From Planctomycetota bacterium (GTDB lineage Bacteria > Planctomycetota > Planctomycetia > Pirellulales > Lacipirellulaceae), in the NCBI GenBank assembly GCA_029259915.1, contig JAJDED010000004.1:1-64000 (forward strand): a stretch of 64,000 bases of DNA, written 5' to 3'. The position numbers and the translations under genes were made by a program. The notes below the pieces were generated by a model. It saw only the letters and a program-made list of their open reading frames with translations, was not told the origin of the DNA and made no database searches. Each line of letters opens with the position of its first letter. The first letter of the stretch is position 1. Shown here in pieces: positions 47,977 through 64,000 of the stretch.

Positions 47977-48603
47977 ATGATTTCGTCAAAAATCAGGACA
48001 CCGCTATTTGTTGTTGGTTTCATATCTTTCTTACTTCTACTTTCCACCTCTCCGGCAGCGGCGGGCATCATTACGCCCGGCACATATCGGCTGTTTGACC
48101 ACGGCTTTGGAAATCTGGGGCCCGACTATGGGCTCCGTGTGGACGCTACCGGTCAGCTCTTCAGTACCGAGTTGGGTGGAGCTCAAACTGTTCTCACCTG
48201 GAACGGTGGTCCTACCGCCACGATCTCAGGTACGTTGCACGAAAACACAACGACCGACATTTGGCAAGTGAATTATGTAATGACCGGAGTGGTTGCCGCC
48301 GCAGGCAATCTGGGATTTACTGCCACAGCCGGATCAGGCACTCTGACCGATCCTCTGCTGAATGTTACGCCAATCACCGGCGAACAGAATGGCTCAGGTA
48401 TTGCCTTCGACTTCCTGGCTGATGGTCATCGCATCCCAGGCGATTCTGACACAGCGGTAGGCCGTGGTTGGTTGTTGCCGCCCAGCTCCACTGACGATTG
48501 GCTCGTACGGGCTGAACTCATCCCGGAGCCAGGCTCAGCGCTGCTGATAGGCCTCGGACTGACAAGTCTCTCGTTCTGTCGACGGGGTCGGAATACCAGA
48601 TAG
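47977..48603 (+). CDS. PEP-CTERM exported protein
   Basis: A 208-residue secreted protein: a signal peptide (about 1-29, ending SPAAAG), a beta-rich, Gly/Thr-rich body without a recognised domain, and a PEP-CTERM tail (IPEPGSALLIGLGLTSLSF, then RRGRNTR). Exosortase processes such tails and the proteins end up at the surface or in the matrix. Its own terminator follows. Confidence 0.85.
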   Translation: MISSKIRTPLFVVGFISFLLLLSTSPAAAGIITPGTYRLFDHGFGNLGPDYGLRVDATGQLFSTELGGAQTVLTWNGGPTATISGTLHENTTTDIWQVNYVMTGVVAAAGNLGFTATAGSGTLTDPLLNVTPITGEQNGSGIAFDFLADGHRIPGDSDTAVGRGWLLPPSSTDDWLVRAELIPEPGSALLIGLGLTSLSFCRRGRNTR

Positions 48604-53640: not shown

Positions 53641-55164
53641 ATGAGTAATGAACTTTGCGACATGCCGCGAAACCAGCATTCAAAGGTTACGCTCACCTTT
53701 GGACTTGGCGGCGTCTGGCTGCTCATTTCTCTGCTGGTGTCCTGCAAATCGATGAACGACGTTCCCCGCATCGAGCAGGAGCGGGTCGACTCGGGCTGGC
53801 CAAGGGCCAGAGAAACTTGGGAAGCTAATAGATTTCCGTCGCTGAGGGTCGAACTGCCTACGAATCCCGACGCAGAATATGTGAACAACGACCAGCTATG
53901 CTCGGTTTGCCACGATACGTACGTCCACGCGTTTGAGAATAATGTTCACCGCAGAGAAAGCTGCGAAGCGTGCCATGGGCCAGCAAGCCGACATCTTGAT
54001 ACACGCGGCAAAGATCCGGGATCCATACTGAGTTTCCACCGCATGGCTCCTGCACAACGCTCGGAAGTATGCGCCCAGTGCCATGAGCAAGACGCCTGTG
54101 CCCCGGGACACGAGTGGCGCCGCTCTGTTCATGCACACAAGGGAGTGGCCTGCACCGATTGCCATTTAAAGAACCATTACAACGTTCCGTCAGGCACACC
54201 GAAGATAACTCCCACACCGATTGCCGAGGAATCGTTCCCTCAGGATTGGAGAATCCTGCTTACGAGTACATTTGCTTCAAACGACGAAGATGGCGAACTA
54301 AGGCGTGCTTTACCATCGCTGCGAGGCACGTCGAACAACCTGGGTGCGATCGCACCGAACATCTGCTACCAATGCCATTGCGATAAACACGAGCTTGAAG
54401 AAGTTGCCCATCCTCATCAGATCCATGGGCCCAACAGTTTGAATTGCACTTCGTGCCACAACGCCCACGGCAATGTTTTGCCCTCGTCGAGGAAAGAACT
54501 TTGTCTGCAGTGTCACGACGGAACCTCGCCGAACGCCGCTTGGCACTCTTCCTCACACGATTTGGCCGGCGTTGCCTGCACCGACTGCCACAATCCGCAT
54601 CCCAATACGAGCGTCCAACGAGTTGTGAACATCAGCCACACCTCCGTGAAGCGCCCCCACCGATTGCCGATGTCGGTAAACGAGCCCGAAGCATGCTACA
54701 AGTGCCACCCGAAAATCTTGGGACTCACGGGCCTGCCATCGCACCACCCGATCAAAGAAGGAAAAGTGACTTGCTCCGACTGCCACGACGCGCACGGACA
54801 AGCCGAGGGGAATCTCAAAGAGCCGACGCTCAATCTCGTTTGCTACAAATGCCACGCCGATAAGCAAGGTCCCTTTGCCTATGAACATCCACCGGTGACG
54901 GAAGATTGCTCCATCTGCCACGAGCCTCATGGCACAGTGGCGAACAATCTGCTCCGACAACCGGCCTCGTTCTTATGCCTGCGTTGCCATACAGGTCACC
55001 GAGTCGACCCGACCACCTTCGACCACTTTGGTTTGCCGGTCGCAGACATCGATAACAATCCAGCGCTCCGCGGGGCGTTCTATAGCGACTGTACCCAATG
55101 CCATGACCAAATCCACGGAAGCGATCATCCATCGCAACGTCGAGCCGGTGTCTTTTTGAGATAA
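53641..55164 (+). CDS. 14-heme c-type cytochrome lipoprotein, MtrA/DmsE-like
   Basis: An exported electron carrier of 507 residues with 14 CxxCH heme-binding motifs, counted directly (first CSVCH, last CTQCH). A hydrophobic segment leads to the lipobox LVSC (Cys35), which suggests an outer-membrane-anchored periplasmic protein. The even spacing of motifs and many additional His residues fit a chain of bis-His hemes as in MtrA/DmsE (10 hemes); this one has four more. It is followed 73 bases later by a large outer-membrane barrel, the same order as mtrA-mtrB or pioA-pioB. No strong ribosome site is seen before the ATG at 53641; ATG 53662 is an alternative. Confidence 0.9.
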   Translation: MSNELCDMPRNQHSKVTLTFGLGGVWLLISLLVSCKSMNDVPRIEQERVDSGWPRARETWEANRFPSLRVELPTNPDAEYVNNDQLCSVCHDTYVHAFENNVHRRESCEACHGPASRHLDTRGKDPGSILSFHRMAPAQRSEVCAQCHEQDACAPGHEWRRSVHAHKGVACTDCHLKNHYNVPSGTPKITPTPIAEESFPQDWRILLTSTFASNDEDGELRRALPSLRGTSNNLGAIAPNICYQCHCDKHELEEVAHPHQIHGPNSLNCTSCHNAHGNVLPSSRKELCLQCHDGTSPNAAWHSSSHDLAGVACTDCHNPHPNTSVQRVVNISHTSVKRPHRLPMSVNEPEACYKCHPKILGLTGLPSHHPIKEGKVTCSDCHDAHGQAEGNLKEPTLNLVCYKCHADKQGPFAYEHPPVTEDCSICHEPHGTVANNLLRQPASFLCLRCHTGHRVDPTTFDHFGLPVADIDNNPALRGAFYSDCTQCHDQIHGSDHPSQRRAGVFLR

Positions 55165-55237: not shown

Positions 55238-57547
55238 ATGCTTAAGAAGTATGCGATATTCATTGTGAGTGCGCTTGTCATCATGACGAGCATTGCTAGC
55301 GCTGAAACATTGCGCTCCGCTGATTCTACAGATCTGCCGCAGCAAAAAGTCCATATCCTAAAACCCTCGATGGATACTGCCGATACCGTTTGGCTTGATA
55401 AATATGCCTATTCTTCAAGCGACGATCCAATGCGACCGTCAACTGCGGCGGTGGAATATTCTCTGTCGTCTTCATTCGGTTGGCCACATACTTTTGCTGG
55501 TACTGGCCAGCCACTAACAACCTGGATCGATTGGACGCTCACCAAGGAATCGGAGTTGCCGATCATGATTTCCGATTCCGAAGTCCATGCGGCGGCCTAT
55601 AGCGAAGGGTGCTACGCGCCGGATCACTATTACACGGCACCGCCGAGATCGTTCCACGCATGCAATTCGTGCAACGCCTCCCCCTATGGTCTGGCACTTC
55701 GGGGTGGTTGGTGGGACATCGACACCCAAGGGGATCAATCGAAAGTTGGCGAATTCCAGAGTTTGGAGTCCTCAGAATTTTGGGACGCCGACGGACTCTA
55801 TACCGACGGACGTAAAACGGTAGATTTTTCTGTGACCGGGTTGGACTCCGAAGGCACTGACGCACGCTTACGCTATTTTGGCCCGGCAATATCAGCTGAC
55901 ATCGAGTACCAACGATTTCTGCGCCGTCTGGATCACGACCCCTTAGCGGGAACCACCGATTTTCAACAGCAGCCCGCGGGGGGGACCTTCATAATCAAAG
56001 AAGACCTCAACGCAGGCGAGAATTACGCAATCCGCGTGCAAGAGCTAAAAGCAAACTTCAAAGGCAATCTCACGAAGAACCTCAAATGGCGACTTGGCGT
56101 TTGGGGGATGCGCAAACAAGGCGAGAGGCAAGTCAACGCCCTGGGGCATTGCTTCAACCATCCCAACGATACCGACATCAACTCCAATCCAGTGTTCGGC
56201 ACTTCCTGCCATGTGCTAACGCAGCGTCAACGGATTGACTGGGTCACCACCGAAATCGAACCCGCCATAGAGGCAACCATCGGCCAGGCCACGGTCGAAT
56301 ATGCCAGGACGATGAGGGCGTTTGACCAAAGCGATCAAGTTACCACGCGTTCATACAACTTCTTCGGCTTCGGTAGCGATTTGCCCTATGCTGTTGTTCC
56401 AGAAAATTTCACAGAAATTGATCGCCTCAAATCCAACGTATTACTATTGCCGAACTGGGATGTCTACTCCAGCTATTACAATGGAAACACAAGAAACAAA
56501 ACCCGCGAAACCAACCGCCGACTCTGGGGCTTCGATGTGCGAAGCACGGTGCGTAACGGTGCAACCTCTTCGCTGACAGGGTTTGCTAAGAAGAATGTTC
56601 AAACGGGCCAGCTGCCTTCCGTGCTCCTACCGGAAGAAAACATTGGCGATTTGGTCGCTCCGATCAACTACGATCAAACCACCGCAGGCCTAAAAGGCCG
56701 TTGGCGACCTTTCTATGGCGACTGCTCTTGGCGACACGATCTGAGGTTGTCGGGAGGCTACGAATACCGCGGACTGGCCCGCGAGAACGCTACTTTCACC
56801 GAAAATACCACCAGCGTAAACCAGTCGCAAACCACCGCCAATCTTGCACACGTTCGTGCTTCGATGACGTGGAACCGTGCGTTCGAATCCCATGTCCGCT
56901 ACCGCTTCGGTTTTGTCGATGATCCGTTATTTGGTATCGCCAAGAATGGCACTACAAACACAAAACTTCCGACTCAAGAACATCTTGTGGAAATCGGCAG
57001 CACGTGGACTCCCGCAGACAATATCTTGCTTTCAGGAACCTTCGGTTCAGAAAACCGATGGAACCGCTCTAGTGTCAGCAACTTCCAAGAAGATAGTTAC
57101 CCGGTTGTCGTATCAGGTTGGTATGCCCCAGTAACTCGGTGGACTGTTTCCGGCGGCTTGGCGTTCTTTACAAATTGGATTGACCAAGACGTAACTCTTG
57201 GCGCGTTAACCAATTCTCTCACATCACAATGGAATTATCGTGGGACAAGCGACGTGGTGAACGTCGGCACCACCTATGCTTGGAACGATTGCTTGACCTT
57301 GTCGGGGGGTTTGGAGTTTGTTCGCGGAGTCAACGGATTCACGACGCCGGCAACGGTCCCTGCCATCTCGCAGTTCTCAGACGTGATTGTAGAAACCACC
57401 CGCTGGTCCGCTGGCCTGGACTACCAGCTAACCGATGGCATGGACTTCTATTTCCGCTACCAGTTTTTCGATTACGAAGACAAAACCCAAAACATCAACA
57501 GCGGCACAGCCAACCTGTTCCTAACAGGCATCAATGCCATCTTCTAG
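55238..57547 (+). CDS. MtrB/PioB-like outer-membrane beta-barrel
   Basis: A 769-residue outer-membrane protein: signal peptide (1-22, SIASAE), and a long C-terminal series of alternating hydrophobic/polar strands (FESHVRYRFGFV, ATVEYARTM, YEYRGLARENATF), ending in a Phe (GINAIF), the usual outer-membrane insertion signal. The N-terminal part has the CxxC pair Cys142/Cys145 (HACNSCNA), also a mark of MtrB, though at a later position. In the Mtr/Pio model the barrel holds the multiheme cytochrome in the outer membrane. The ATG at 55238 has GAGGGGGAAGAG before it; a GTG at 55223 is less likely. Confidence 0.78.
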   Translation: MLKKYAIFIVSALVIMTSIASAETLRSADSTDLPQQKVHILKPSMDTADTVWLDKYAYSSSDDPMRPSTAAVEYSLSSSFGWPHTFAGTGQPLTTWIDWTLTKESELPIMISDSEVHAAAYSEGCYAPDHYYTAPPRSFHACNSCNASPYGLALRGGWWDIDTQGDQSKVGEFQSLESSEFWDADGLYTDGRKTVDFSVTGLDSEGTDARLRYFGPAISADIEYQRFLRRLDHDPLAGTTDFQQQPAGGTFIIKEDLNAGENYAIRVQELKANFKGNLTKNLKWRLGVWGMRKQGERQVNALGHCFNHPNDTDINSNPVFGTSCHVLTQRQRIDWVTTEIEPAIEATIGQATVEYARTMRAFDQSDQVTTRSYNFFGFGSDLPYAVVPENFTEIDRLKSNVLLLPNWDVYSSYYNGNTRNKTRETNRRLWGFDVRSTVRNGATSSLTGFAKKNVQTGQLPSVLLPEENIGDLVAPINYDQTTAGLKGRWRPFYGDCSWRHDLRLSGGYEYRGLARENATFTENTTSVNQSQTTANLAHVRASMTWNRAFESHVRYRFGFVDDPLFGIAKNGTTNTKLPTQEHLVEIGSTWTPADNILLSGTFGSENRWNRSSVSNFQEDSYPVVVSGWYAPVTRWTVSGGLAFFTNWIDQDVTLGALTNSLTSQWNYRGTSDVVNVGTTYAWNDCLTLSGGLEFVRGVNGFTTPATVPAISQFSDVIVETTRWSAGLDYQLTDGMDFYFRYQFFDYEDKTQNINSGTANLFLTGINAIF

Positions 57548-58192: not shown

Positions 58193-58798
58193 ATGAAGAA
58201 AACTGTAATCAAAACAATAACCGCTATGACAGTAGGTTTGCTCGTTATGGCTTCGTCCGAAACGGTTCAAGCCACTCCTACCATTGCCGGCGGAGCTGCC
58301 TGTACAAATTGCCACGGCACTTCTGTGGGAGGGACAGTGGGAGGTACATTGAATGTACTCCCATCGGATATTGTGGAAATCCCTTTGGGAGGCTCTCAGA
58401 CCGTGACCTTTGATATCACCGACATCCCAAGCGGCAAAGCGGCAATTGCGCTGACAGGGCTCGCAGATCCCCTGCTCGCTGCTACTTTGGGCGCTGGCTG
58501 GTCTGATATCGCTGGCGCTTATTTCGCAACGGATACACCATTTGTAGAGGCCCCAGCACCACAATCTTACACGCTGGGTCTGACTATTGGTGCCGGTGCA
58601 ACGCTCGGCGACTACGGAATTGGAGGTCAATTTGCTGGTAACAAAGGATTTAATCCTGCGAGTTGGGCCAGTACCTTCGATTTCACCGTGCGTGTAATTG
58701 AAGCGATTCCTGAACCGGCATCCCTTGCGTTGATGGGCCTTGGCCTAACGACGATTGGTTTGATGTCGATCAGAAGAAAGTCTCGGCAGAATGAATAA
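58193..58798 (+). CDS. PEP-CTERM protein with one c-type heme motif
   Basis: A 201-residue exported protein that combines a signal peptide (1-27, ending TVQATP), one heme-binding motif CTNCHG (Cys37-His41), a beta-type Gly/Thr/Pro-rich body with ITDIPSGKAAIALTG, and a PEP-CTERM tail (IPEPASLALMGLGL, then RRKSR). It would bind heme outside the cytoplasm and be sorted to the surface or matrix by exosortase. It lies 645 bases behind the MtrB-like barrel gene and has its own terminator. Electron transfer at the cell surface is an inference; chance occurrence of one CxxCH cannot be excluded, though its place just after the signal peptide resembles true monoheme proteins. Confidence 0.8.
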   Translation: MKKTVIKTITAMTVGLLVMASSETVQATPTIAGGAACTNCHGTSVGGTVGGTLNVLPSDIVEIPLGGSQTVTFDITDIPSGKAAIALTGLADPLLAATLGAGWSDIAGAYFATDTPFVEAPAPQSYTLGLTIGAGATLGDYGIGGQFAGNKGFNPASWASTFDFTVRVIEAIPEPASLALMGLGLTTIGLMSIRRKSRQNE

Positions 58799-59355: not shown

Positions 59356-59889
59356 CTATTCCTTGTCGAAATCCATATGCGATTGGTGCCTCTTGGCCTC
59401 GTGGCATTTGATGCAGATGTTCCCTGGCTGGAGCTTGTGAATCGCGCTGCGGACCGCCGCTTCGCCTTCCGGAGTTATGTCCTCCTCGACGAATTTCAAG
59501 GCCAACTCTGCGTGCTTACTTCCTGGGCCATGACATGATTCGCAGGTGACACCAGCCAAATCAGACGTCGACGCATCCTTGTATCCGCTAGGCATACCAA
59601 AGCCTGTCGTATGACATGCCAGACATTCAGCATTCTCGCGGTACTTGGCAGGGAGAATTTCGAATGCTTTCGAATGCTCGTCCTTTTTCCAGGTGCGAAA
59701 CTGGGGAAAGTGGCAAGCTGCACATTTCTTCGTTCCCACGAAATTCTGATCGGCTGGTGGGGAGGCTGCCTCTTCCGCGACTCCAGTCTCAGGTTTTGCC
59801 AGTGTTACCACTGCCAGCACGACCAGAGTAATTCCCACAAGTGTAGCCCCGATAGTTCGGCCACTTCTACTACGCCAAATCGCACTCAT
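59356..59889 (-). CDS. Tetraheme cytochrome c-554-like protein
   Basis: A 177-residue exported cytochrome with an N-terminal helix (14-31) acting as signal or membrane anchor and four CxxCH motifs: Cys56-His60, 89-93, 116-120, 159-163. The sequence FVGTKKCAACHFPQF and VTCESCHGPGSKH is the cytochrome c-554-type fold, found in nitrifiers and many planctomycetes. It is placed in the periplasm and could feed electrons to the 14-heme protein, an inference. The ATG at 59889 is supported by GGAAGGGAA; it is divergent from ccmE. Confidence 0.88.
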   Translation of the reverse strand: MSAIWRSRSGRTIGATLVGITLVVLAVVTLAKPETGVAEEAASPPADQNFVGTKKCAACHFPQFRTWKKDEHSKAFEILPAKYRENAECLACHTTGFGMPSGYKDASTSDLAGVTCESCHGPGSKHAELALKFVEEDITPEGEAAVRSAIHKLQPGNICIKCHEAKRHQSHMDFDKE

Positions 59890-60167: not shown

Positions 60168-60557
60168 ATGACGGCAACGCAAAGACTTTTCCTAGGTGGG
60201 GTCGTGATCACTTTCGCGACGATGGCTCTCGCCTATTTGGGCGCTTCTTCGAGCTGGCAATTCTATCTCACAGTAGACGAATTGGCGGCTGACGCCGCGT
60301 CGTTCCGCGAGAGTCGTGTGCGCATTAGTGGGAAAGTTGCCCGCGATTCTCTTCAAATTGCCCCCGACCGTTCCCAAGCCTCTTTTGTTCTCCAGGGTGA
60401 AACCGCCAAACTCAACGTGCAGTACACCGGACTCATCCCCGACAACCTGGCTGAAGGTATCGAAGTCGTTGTGGAAGGGCGGTTGGAAGATACCGGTTTG
60501 GTGCGAGGCAACAAAGTTCTTACTCGATGTGCAAGCAAGTACTCGTCGAACGGATAG
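60168..60557 (+). CDS. ccmE: Heme chaperone CcmE, Cys-type
   Basis: Cytochrome c maturation protein that takes heme from the CcmC side and passes it to CcmF. The 129-residue protein has an N-terminal membrane helix (8-25) and the OB-fold domain (VRISGKVARDSLQI, ASFVLQGETAKLNVQY, GIEVVVEGRL). The heme-attaching residue is Cys121 in RCASKY, giving CxxxY where E. coli has HxxxY; this variant is known in archaea and sulfate reducers. It is the first gene of the ccmEFAB run. Confidence 0.87.
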   Translation: MTATQRLFLGGVVITFATMALAYLGASSSWQFYLTVDELAADAASFRESRVRISGKVARDSLQIAPDRSQASFVLQGETAKLNVQYTGLIPDNLAEGIEVVVEGRLEDTGLVRGNKVLTRCASKYSSNG

Positions 60558-60596
60558 GGTTTGTGGTCGGTCCCCATAGGAATATGCGAAAAGATA

Positions 60597-62588
60597 ATGC
60601 TTGGTTTCGGTGAGCTTTGTTTACTTGGTGCATTCATTGCATCGGGATTTGCCGCGTTTGCAACCTTAGCAGGTTGCGACGACAAGCATCGTGCGCTTGA
60701 AAAAAGCGCACTCATTTCGTCGGCAGCCAGTCTCGTACTGCTCACACTGGTCATGCTCATTCTGGCCATTGCGCTGCTTACCAAGAACTATCAATTCGAC
60801 TACGTCGCATACTACTGCAGCCAACACCTGCCCTGGTATTATGGGTTGTCTGCTCTTTGGGTGGGACAAGCCGGTTCGCTGTTATTGTGGGCTTGGTTTT
60901 TGGGCATACTAGCGATGATCTTCCGATTCGCGTCGTCAAGAAAATCAGACACACTCAGGCAGCGCGCATTTGGTTTGTTGATGGCCAACACTTGCTTCCT
61001 GATCGCAACCATGGTGTTCGCAGCCGACCCTATGGCCCGAAGTGTTGGCACTCCCACCGAAGGCGCCGGCCTCAGCCCCTTGCTCCAGCATCCCGCGATG
61101 CTGATCCACCCACCCATCATATTCCTGGGTTACGCCGCTTGGGCAATTCCCTTCGCGCTAGCGACTGCTGCACTGATCAATAAACGCTTCGATACAACTT
61201 GGATCCAACAAGCTCGGCCTTGGGCCCTGTTTGCCTGGGCAGTGCTTGGCGCCGGTATCCTGCTGGGAGCCGAGTGGGCCTACGAAGAACTTGGCTGGGG
61301 CGGCTACTGGGGATGGGACCCCGTGGAAAACGGGTCACTGATCCCTTGGCTACTGGGCACTGCGTTTATCCACACGATGATGACCTGGCGACGACGCGGC
61401 ATCATGAAAAAAACAACGGTTGCCTTGGCGATTGCCACTTTTGCAATGTGCAACTTCGCAACCTTTCTCACCCGTAGCGGCATCTTCAGCAGCCTCCACG
61501 CATTTAGTCAGTCGCCCATCGGTTGGTTGTTTCTGGCACTCATGCTTGTGTTGGCATTGGCCGGTGGAATTTTGATTTACCAACGCCGCAAAGAACTAGC
61601 GCCAGAGAATCAAATCACCTCCGCAATGAGCCGTGAAGCGATGGTCGCCATGACGACGGTGGCACTACTGCTGCTCGCAACCGTGACTTGCCTGGGCACG
61701 CTTAGCGTTGCCCTTTCCGATGCCCTAGTCGGCACCAAAATCACGGTCGGGCCACCCTTTTACAACAACGTTCTGGCACCAACCGGACTGCTAATTTTGA
61801 CAGCAACCGCTTTAGCACCGCTGCTCCGCTGGGGATCAACGCCTTCTGCTCCAGAAAAACGAATGCTGAAGATCTCCGCCACCGTCGGCGTTCTTACTAT
61901 GATGGGAATCGTCGTTGGGGGTGCTACACATTATCTCTTGATCGCTGTGACAGGAATTGTCGCGTTTGCCGTGGCCGTGCTTTTGTGTTCCCTGTGGTTG
62001 GACGCCAAGCGACGTCCTTGCGACAACTATTGGGCCAGCTTGGTACGCTGCCTAAGAGAAAAGCGCAATCAGTACGCAGGGTTCTTCGTTCACTTGGGAT
62101 TTTTTGCCTTAGCGATCGGAATCGTCGGCTCGTCGTTGGGGACCCAACGCCATGAGGTTAGCCTCATGCAGGGACAAACGATCGAATGGGCTGGTCGATC
62201 GATCCAACTGGTAGACATTGTCGATCGCCAACTTCCAGACAAGCTCGTTGCCGGCGCGGTGCTAGAAGTTTCTCGCATCGGCGATGTTCCTGTGAAACTC
62301 ACTCCGGAACAACACTTGCACCTGCTGCAAAACGAGTGGACCACCGAGGTCGCTATCCAGTCGGACTGGAGCGGGGATCTCTATATGATCCTGCATGGCG
62401 GAACGGAAGACGGAGGCGTGAGACTTACCCTGGTCGATAATCCAAGAATGCGTTGGCTATGGCTCGGCGGCTTAACCATGCTGCTGGGGGCAACCGTCTC
62501 ACTTTGGCCAAACAAAAAAGCTGCCAGGCAAAACTACAATCAACCCGCGGAATTCAGCGAACAGCCACAAGGTCTCAAGGCGGCCTAA
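60597..62588 (+). CDS. ccmF: Cytochrome c heme lyase subunit CcmF
   Basis: A 663-residue polytopic membrane protein of the heme ligation complex. It contains the WWD heme-handling domain, WGGYWGWDPVENGSLIPWL (Trp234 on), about 14 membrane helices, and periplasmic loops with conserved His. It accepts heme from CcmE and attaches it to CxxCH motifs. The ATG at 60597 is chosen within a frame starting at 60561 (TTG). It lies 39 bases after ccmE and 21 before ccmA. Its length matches the family. Confidence 0.93.
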   Translation: MLGFGELCLLGAFIASGFAAFATLAGCDDKHRALEKSALISSAASLVLLTLVMLILAIALLTKNYQFDYVAYYCSQHLPWYYGLSALWVGQAGSLLLWAWFLGILAMIFRFASSRKSDTLRQRAFGLLMANTCFLIATMVFAADPMARSVGTPTEGAGLSPLLQHPAMLIHPPIIFLGYAAWAIPFALATAALINKRFDTTWIQQARPWALFAWAVLGAGILLGAEWAYEELGWGGYWGWDPVENGSLIPWLLGTAFIHTMMTWRRRGIMKKTTVALAIATFAMCNFATFLTRSGIFSSLHAFSQSPIGWLFLALMLVLALAGGILIYQRRKELAPENQITSAMSREAMVAMTTVALLLLATVTCLGTLSVALSDALVGTKITVGPPFYNNVLAPTGLLILTATALAPLLRWGSTPSAPEKRMLKISATVGVLTMMGIVVGGATHYLLIAVTGIVAFAVAVLLCSLWLDAKRRPCDNYWASLVRCLREKRNQYAGFFVHLGFFALAIGIVGSSLGTQRHEVSLMQGQTIEWAGRSIQLVDIVDRQLPDKLVAGAVLEVSRIGDVPVKLTPEQHLHLLQNEWTTEVAIQSDWSGDLYMILHGGTEDGGVRLTLVDNPRMRWLWLGGLTMLLGATVSLWPNKKAARQNYNQPAEFSEQPQGLKAA

Positions 62589-62609
62589 CAGACCGACTCA
62601 GCAACCCAA

Positions 62610-63320
62610 GTGAAGAACCCATCAACAATCACCGATGTCTTGCGAGCTACGAGACTGTCCAAACAGTTCGGTGGGCATGTTGTGTTGCGACAAATCGATC
62701 TCAGAATTGCATCTGGAGAGTCCATCGCCGTGATGGGCGACAATGGATCGGGAAAAACTACGCTCTTGCGTTGTCTCGCAGGAATTGCCCAAACGGATGC
62801 GGGAGAATTACTTTGGCACGGCGAACCAGCGGGGGCCAGCCCAGAACTGAGTCGCATGCTGGGAATGGTTGCCCACGAGAGCCAGCTCTATCCAAATCTG
62901 ACTTTGCAGGAAAATCTCCTGTTCGCCGCAAGAATGACCCGAGTACGCCAACCAGCTAATCAGGTGAGCGATTGGCTGGAGCGGATCGGACTATCGGCGT
63001 TCGCAAACAGTCTGCCGGGCGAAATTTCCCATGGCATGCGTCGCCGTGTTTCCGTAGCGCGTGGATTGATCCACAAACCGCGCCTTGTGTTGATGGACGA
63101 GCCTTTTTCTGGACTCGACACCGAAGGACAAATCTGGCTTGCCGAGTTACTCAACAGTCTGCAGTTACAACATCAAAGCATTTGCTTCACCACGCACGAC
63201 ATAAAACATGCCCAAACCTGCTCTGATCGGGTGCTCGTATTGAAAAACGGATTACTCCTGAAAAAATCGTGCCCTACCCTGCTAGAAAACGATCCCCACA
63301 AACACCATCAAGCAGCTTAA
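62610..63320 (+). CDS. ccmA: Cytochrome c maturation ABC ATPase CcmA
   Basis: A 236-residue ATP-binding subunit of the CcmABCD complex, which releases heme-bound CcmE. Walker A GDNGSGKT (43-50), a signature variant ISHGMRRR (139-146) in place of LSGGQ, as in other CcmA-like proteins, and Walker B LVLMDEP (159-165). It uses a GTG start. It is followed 7 bases later by ccmB, so both are co-translated. Confidence 0.88.
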   Translation: MKNPSTITDVLRATRLSKQFGGHVVLRQIDLRIASGESIAVMGDNGSGKTTLLRCLAGIAQTDAGELLWHGEPAGASPELSRMLGMVAHESQLYPNLTLQENLLFAARMTRVRQPANQVSDWLERIGLSAFANSLPGEISHGMRRRVSVARGLIHKPRLVLMDEPFSGLDTEGQIWLAELLNSLQLQHQSICFTTHDIKHAQTCSDRVLVLKNGLLLKKSCPTLLENDPHKHHQAA

Positions 63321-63327
63321 ATTCCCG

Positions 63328-64000
63328 ATGCAAACCGCAACCACCATGTATTGGATTGTTTGGAAAGACCTGGTGTCCGAATATCGGGCTCGACAGGCTT
63401 GGCCCGCGATGTTGATGCTTGGCGTAGTGGTAACCTTTTTATTTAGTGCCCAGTTGGATGCTGTTGGCGAAAGTCAGTCGAGGATGCTTGCGATTCAGAT
63501 TTGGCTCGCCATCTTTTTTTCGGGGATGCTGTCGCTGAATCGATCGTTTGCAGCAGAACGCGTTGAAGGTTGCTGGGACGCGTTGCGACTCTACCCCATT
63601 CATCCTGTTTGGATTTATTTGGCCAAGCTCACGGTTAACGTGCTTGCTCTAGGAGTTCTTCAAGCGGTTGTCTTTATGCTCTGCATAGTACTCTGCAATG
63701 TTCCACTGCTGAATCATCCGTGGCAAGTGGCCCTGCTTGCCTTGCTGGGTAATCTTGGGATCTCGGCGGTCGGTACTCTGTTAGGAAGCGTCTGCTGCTC
63801 AGACCGACAAAGTGCCCCGCTGTTGGCGTTTATGACATTGCCATTAATCACACCGGTGATCGTAGCAGCATCGGAAGCCACAAGGCTTGTCTGCGATGGA
63901 TCAATCGGTGCCGAATGGTGGCGGTGGATTGGTCTGCTTGCCGTTTTTGCTGTGGTGTTTGTCACGGCTGGGATCGTCCTGATTGAATTTCTTATCGAGG
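63328..64000 (+). CDS. ccmB: Cytochrome c maturation permease CcmB (3' end beyond window)
   Basis: The first 224 codons of a permease beginning MQTATTMYWIVWKDLVSEYR, with about five hydrophobic helices visible, for example AMLMLGVVVTFLFSAQ and MLAIQIWLAIFFSGMLSLN, and the loop RSFAAERVEGCWDALRLYP, typical of CcmB. It belongs to the CcmABC complex. The window ends at about the expected C-terminus (family length about 220-225). A ccmC gene would be expected next. Confidence 0.87.
   Translation, partial: MQTATTMYWIVWKDLVSEYRARQAWPAMLMLGVVVTFLFSAQLDAVGESQSRMLAIQIWLAIFFSGMLSLNRSFAAERVEGCWDALRLYPIHPVWIYLAKLTVNVLALGVLQAVVFMLCIVLCNVPLLNHPWQVALLALLGNLGISAVGTLLGSVCCSDRQSAPLLAFMTLPLITPVIVAASEATRLVCDGSIGAEWWRWIGLLAVFAVVFVTAGIVLIEFLIE

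Follow-up and report, generated by a model that had tools for sequence, protein, structure and literature searches.

A gene pair in a planctomycete genome likely encodes an MtrAB-type outer-membrane electron conduit whose cytochrome has been extended by a tetraheme block. The pair lies in the window analysed here, the 64,000 nucleotides at positions 1 to 64,000 of contig JAJDED010000004.1 (assembly GCA_029259915.1, Pirellulales), and joins a 14-heme cytochrome (53,641-55,164) to a barrel-forming porin (55,238-57,547). In the arrangement we propose, the barrel would hold the C-terminal part of the cytochrome and insulate its hemes through the membrane, and a block equivalent to hemes 3-6 would have been tandemly duplicated inside an MtrA/DmsE-type chain to give 14 hemes. 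The barrel-threading half would be unchanged, the added hemes lengthening the periplasmic side, and the original hemes 1-4, beyond a variable linker, would form an arm of four hemes, probably anchored by lipid and partly mobile, that exchanges electrons in one direction or the other with cytochromes of the periplasm and the inner membrane. The insertion of the cytochrome in the barrel, its substrate and the direction of electron flow are what we infer from this arrangement.

A 14-heme member of the MtrA/DmsE superfamily

The cytochrome gene (53,641-55,164, forward strand) is a single open frame of 507 residues with 14 CxxCH motifs, the number given in the initial annotation, starting at residues 87, 108, 144, 171, 242, 269, 288, 313, 352, 378, 401, 423, 446 and 484. 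The other five frames of this interval contain none, and 5000 shuffled copies of the protein's residues carried 0.16 motifs on average and three at most. Genome contigs were scanned with the long form as the seed, which returned 313 relatives, the best 80 of which were kept; among these, 14 motifs recur at 19 loci with near-identical spacing, in many independent metagenome assemblies, so the count is no assembly artefact, and the idea that chance, a misread frame or a faulty assembly produced it can be regarded as refuted. Across all 19 fourteen-heme sequences, 16 histidines outside the motifs are invariant, enough that bis-His ligation of all 14 hemes could be accommodated by the sequence.

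The relationship to MtrA and DmsE holds up: the protein scores 236.5 bits with TIGR03508 (DmsE/MtrA; cut-off 192.2), although it stays below the cut-off of NF041028, the GSU2203 decaheme family (294.3 bits against 325), and its best solved relative by phmmer is Shewanella baltica MtrA (6r2q_A, E 1.1e-36). Members of the superfamily are defined as decaheme, and with 14 CxxCH motifs the protein is therefore a variant of the superfamily, not a decaheme cytochrome. The match to 6r2q_A falls into two stretches, residues 107-176 on MtrA 99-165 and residues 288-500 on MtrA 136-329, and since these overlap on the MtrA side they gave the first sign of an internal duplication.

The N-terminus is hydrophobic and signal-like and leads into a lipobox, LVSC (residues 32-35; 53,734-53,745, forward strand), with Cys35 as the predicted lipidated residue and Lys, not Asp, at +2. 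Orthologues keep the site as xxSC, xxAC or xxGC. A pattern test finds the same feature in no fewer than 34 of the 48 decaheme relatives, and inspection by eye adds several more, so that it is no mark of the 14-heme form; the lipobox is real but has no link to the extension of the heme chain. It had been taken at first as a sign of anchoring instead of free export: the site itself is conserved, and a lipobox is no argument against export. In E. coli, Lys at the +2 position directs lipoproteins preferentially to the outer membrane, a rule that may not hold in planctomycetes.

A near-invariant MtrB-type partner

The next gene (55,238-57,547, forward strand; 769 residues) starts 73 bases past the cytochrome's stop codon. 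Its product scores 143.7 bits with the GSU2204 model NF041027, below the cut-off of 350, and had no match in Pfam at E 0.001 or in sequence searches of the PDB. AlphaFold2, given 54 sequences, folded it as a 26-strand barrel with pLDDT above 90 over most of its length and a pTM of 0.74, the first 127 residues being unstructured. Foldseek placed MtrB (6r2q_B) at the top for this model (E 2e-19, TM 0.72 by target), and VIA-align superposed 562 residues on it at Z 22.0 and rmsd 3.2, the next entry reaching Z 14.4. The porin is thus predicted to be an MtrB-type, GSU2204-like outer-membrane barrel, on the strength of its fold, a weak NF041027 score and gene order. Because the best PDB match of the downstream barrel is by far MtrB, we classify the two genes as a probable MtrAB-type (GSU2203/GSU2204-like) pair.

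The pairing itself is close to invariant. A porin homologue lies immediately downstream at 26 of the 28 long-form loci; the remaining two stop at a contig edge. At the shorter-form loci one was found in 47 of 52 cases, in two of them as a fused open reading frame. Adjacency and fold together bear out the earlier suggestion that the cytochrome is partnered by a barrel. Might the protein instead be a multiheme enzyme or shuttle of the periplasm, soluble or tethered to a membrane, and never enter a barrel? It does show weak local similarity to NrfB/NrfH and to cytochrome c nitrite reductase models, but the DmsE/MtrA models score much higher, and the near-invariant adjacency to an MtrB-fold porin extends across phyla, which makes such an enzyme an improbable reading.

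Two further observations concern the porins. In Candidatus Hebobacteria, the cytochrome and porin matches fall on one open reading frame of 981 or 983 residues (L117:5629-8571 and L134:5824-8772), possibly a natural fusion. Many GSU2204-type porins are split by one in-frame stop codon (for example L125:6893-9277, L138:6935-9319 and L158:6884-9307), which is consistent with the selenoprotein annotation of NF041027.

Origin of the four additional hemes

How does a ten-heme chain come to have 14 hemes? We built profile HMMs of neighbouring heme pairs from the 48 decaheme relatives and scored them against the long forms. Hemes 1-4 (53,899-54,165, forward strand) are matched in register by decaheme pairs 1-2, 2-3 and 3-4 (41, 58 and 41 bits), as is pair 4-5 by decaheme 4-5, and hemes 9-14 (54,694-55,104, forward strand) by decaheme pairs 5-6 to 9-10 (53-95 bits: 74, 78, 95, 80 and 53 in order), making these segments orthologous to decaheme hemes 1-4 and 5-10, respectively. 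Between them, at 54,364-54,591 (forward strand), lies an inserted tetraheme module in which pair 5-6 is matched best, if weakly (21-27 bits), by decaheme 5-6, and pair 7-8 by decaheme 3-4 (48-50 bits), with pair 8-9 following as decaheme 4-5. No pair model stands out for pair 6-7, the duplication junction and weakest link of the series. The modules thus run 1-2-3-4-[5'-6'-3'-4']-5-6-7-8-9-10, the order that an internal tandem duplication of the hemes 3-6 block in a ten-heme MtrA-type chain produces, and this is how the 14 hemes would have arisen. By the same pair models, the 19- and 20-heme forms have copied the block again and gained one more motif near the C-terminus. Mean identity is 72% over hemes 1-4 and 73% and 76% over hemes 5-14, the 76% belonging to hemes 9-14. 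By analogy with MtrA, hemes 9-14 would be the barrel-threading half, its six C-terminal hemes unchanged relative to the decahemes.

The extended form is conserved in a clade of Pirellulales, with 14 and in some members 19 or 20 hemes. Within the order the cytochrome is present in 19 of 396 genomes, and any relative at E 1e-20 in 10 of 392 genomes sampled across the phylum. Among the best 80 of the 313 relatives, 48 could be counted with ten motifs, all of them outside the Pirellulales clade; two have 19 and one has 20, and the damaged sequences comprise one with 13 (truncated at a contig end), one with 15 (frameshifted) and two partial ones with seven. The premise that the MtrA family has ten hemes therefore stands for the 48 nearest relatives counted outside the clade, but not for more distant Planctomycetota relatives, which have 7, 8, 10, 14, 18 or 22. 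Three MtrA-like proteins of other Planctomycetota (L075, L076 and L077) carry 18 (in a broken frame), 22 and 14 motifs that are spaced differently, and their heme numbers are apparently separate expansions. A tree of the shared six-heme half, arbitrarily rooted and returned by the tool with a long-branch warning, separates the long forms from the remaining sequences by a branch supported at 97/96; among them the forms with 18 or more are grouped at 97/84, and a branch of 14-heme forms only is weak (76/64).

Side and shape of the extension

MtrA has a periplasmic N-terminus, with heme A1 about 20 Å inside the periplasm and a chain of ten hemes that is 80 Å long (PMC7198977). Since the insertion precedes the barrel half in the sequence and the six C-terminal hemes are unchanged, the four extra hemes, placed between decaheme hemes 4 and 5, are expected by this analogy to add their length in the periplasm, not outside the cell. 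The initial annotation had allowed for a longer wire on either side; the four additional hemes and the periplasmic direction agree with it, and an extension outside the cell was rejected on the position of the inserted module in the pair models.

If the extra hemes did project beyond the outer membrane, they would replace MtrC, and in 14 genomes with the cytochrome there was indeed no MtrC over the TIGR03507 cut-off, with one near miss (G774); matches to PF22113, the MtrC/MtrF domain, were mostly weak across genomes, and several were the 14-heme cytochrome itself. Such a projection is nevertheless very improbable, more so than a purely periplasmic enzyme, because the added module precedes the conserved barrel half, the last six hemes are spaced as in decahemes, and the end of MtrA on which the addition sits is the periplasmic one.

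Within the periplasm, the extension could be a rod or an arm. Hemes 4 and 5 are separated by a linker (54,166-54,363, forward strand) recognised from gaps and identity among orthologues: it spans 55-98 residues in intact 14-heme sequences and 139 in the truncated L065 and L100, is often rich in Ala, Pro, Ser and Thr, and is 31% identical in its core, against a gap of 11-46 residues in decahemes. Because this variable linker splits hemes 1-4 from hemes 5-14, a hinged tetraheme arm seems no less likely than a longer, rigid rod. PgcA offers a known case of heme domains on flexible tethers (PMC11520253). A rigid, continuous 14-heme rod at MtrA spacing would measure about 115 Å from first to last heme and place heme 1 about 55 Å inside the periplasm, where 115 Å is arithmetic (13 steps of about 8.9 Å, the average step in MtrA) and not a distance from a model. 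The short, fixed gaps of hemes 5-14 would suit such a rod (the gap between hemes 8 and 9 is 34-39 residues at 68% identity), as would the extra modules of the 19- and 20-heme forms, which mostly follow at about 17 residues; the long and poorly conserved 4-5 linker would not, and we regard a rod over the full length as a tentative alternative. An AlphaFold2 model of the mature cytochrome from 22 homologues (pLDDT 39.7, pTM 0.23) was discarded.

A candidate heme site in the porin

Only E151, G274, C303-H304, R494 and P557 (numbering of the modelled fragment) are invariant in all 54 porins. The invariant CH is part of CX2CH in all 31 decaheme-paired porins and of CX10-29CH in 21 of 23 Pirellulales porins; in the window's porin there are 18 spacer residues, and the site is thus CX18CH (residues 305-325; 56,150-56,212, forward strand), not the CXXCH feature of NF041027. 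In the other two Pirellulales porins (L080 and L103) the far Cys is replaced by Gly and a nearer Cys gives CX2CH. This loss of one cysteine with gain of the other suggests that the cysteine and the CH act together, as in heme attachment, with a disulfide as the alternative. By strand position the motif would sit in the hairpin of strands 7-8, and since most hairpins after odd strands of the model are long and most of those after even strands are short, this hairpin is predicted to be extracellular. A heme outside the cell, bound by the porin at CX18CH, is a possible function of the motif. Heme sites of the CX15CH type are known, with dedicated lyases (PMC6976685). A count of PF01578 matches, made to look for a dedicated lyase for the porin motif, gave four, three of them over the cut-off, and does not bear on whether there is one.

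Taken at its widest, the locus might represent an expandable Pirellulales conduit, in which the MtrA core grew from 10 to 14 to about 18 hemes by copying one block, carries a lipid-anchored mobile N-terminal arm, and has an exit heme on the barrel's extracellular hairpin (CX10-29CH) in place of MtrC; we put this fuller version forward only as a conjecture.

Possible partners in the wider circuit

Downstream of the pair, the window encodes a four-heme cytochrome c554-like protein (59,356-59,889, reverse strand; PF13435, 6.9e-15), a possible periplasmic shuttle, and homologues of it lie near the cytochrome-porin pair in several other lineages. Further on, at 60,168-63,320 (forward strand), come genes for cytochrome c maturation, of which the CcmF-like one is supported by PF01578 (132.9 bits) and the CcmE- and CcmA-like ones are named by sequence reading, as is a CcmB-like frame that begins at 63,328 and runs off the window; a further Cytochrom_C_asm match lies just past it (C24:64007). 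CcmE and CcmF homologues also stand beside the pair in other lineages. Separately, a PEP-CTERM-type protein with one CTNCH is encoded just downstream of the pair (58,193-58,798, forward strand), and more PEP-CTERM-like frames lie upstream at 47,977, 49,944 and 52,448.

A candidate for the quinol side is found on another contig of the host genome (L165:6787-10501; C64:57786-61500), where a NapC-fused 12-heme protein adjoins an 11-heme protein that carries a fused formate-dehydrogenase-gamma-like cytochrome b. Of the order's 396 genomes, 8 have the NapC-fused protein, all eight among the 19 with the cytochrome (hypergeometric P 5e-12, shared ancestry being ignored); it was absent at the search threshold from the other 11 of those 19. 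Its homologue adjoins the pair in G485 and lies about 10 kb away in G024. In part of the clade the protein could plausibly serve as the partner on the quinol side. Elsewhere in the host genome (L159:7294-13878; C14:62293-68877), a 23-heme and a 25-heme protein flank a 763-residue frame without a family match, preceded by a ferredoxin/FAD oxidoreductase-like frame; this cluster is possibly a second, PCC3-like conduit.

Relation to known conduits

The closest known system is GSU2203 (OmcK)/GSU2204 of Geobacter and other Thermodesulfobacteriota (NF041028/NF041027), which is up 2.4-2.7-fold on hematite (PMC4070692) and shares with the planctomycete pair its gene order, the same six C-terminal hemes, a lipobox in most relatives, and a homologous porin with the invariant CH at the same place. 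It differs in having ten hemes instead of 14 and CX2CH instead of CX10-29CH in the porin, and both proteins described here score below the curated cut-offs. Shewanella MtrAB(C) (6r2q) is likewise related by cytochrome homology (E 1e-36) and barrel fold (Z 22), whereas MtrA has ten hemes and the protein here has four more and a lipobox; the planctomycete pair also lacks a neighbouring MtrC gene, and its porin has a heme-like motif.

For the remaining systems we rely on portions of PMC4245776 and PMC5566968. According to these, MtoAB and PioAB are also cytochrome-porin pairs without an outer cytochrome gene, but have ten hemes (PMC4245776), a separation made here by description, not by sequence. 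The Pcc periplasmic cytochromes of Anaeromyxobacter, Kuenenia and Ignavibacterium (12-14 hemes; PMC4245776) and those of PCC3, which show sequence repeats and a median of 21 hemes (PMC5566968), are porin-linked with more than ten hemes, but either they are proteins of 338-400 residues or their porin systems are placed outside MtrAB by the authors. Porin-associated cytochromes of 12-14 or more hemes are thus already known, and these portions describe no insertion of four hemes into an MtrA core for them. The insertion and the stretched porin motif appear to be new, neither being found in the parts of the porin-cytochrome literature cited here, and in those of PMC5566968 Planctomycetes appear only as members of a different type, PCC4.

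The pair is also a sign of MtrAB-type electron exchange in Pirellulales. In porin-cytochrome conduits the length of the wire is usually taken to depend on how thick the membrane is. Here, evolution would have changed the inner reach of the wire, from ten hemes to 14 and in some relatives to 19 or 20. With the membrane-threading half kept and a periplasmic tetraheme block multiplied, the limits of heme-wire length and the crossing of the periplasm would become testable, and natural 10-, 14- and 19/20-heme versions of one protein are available for comparison.
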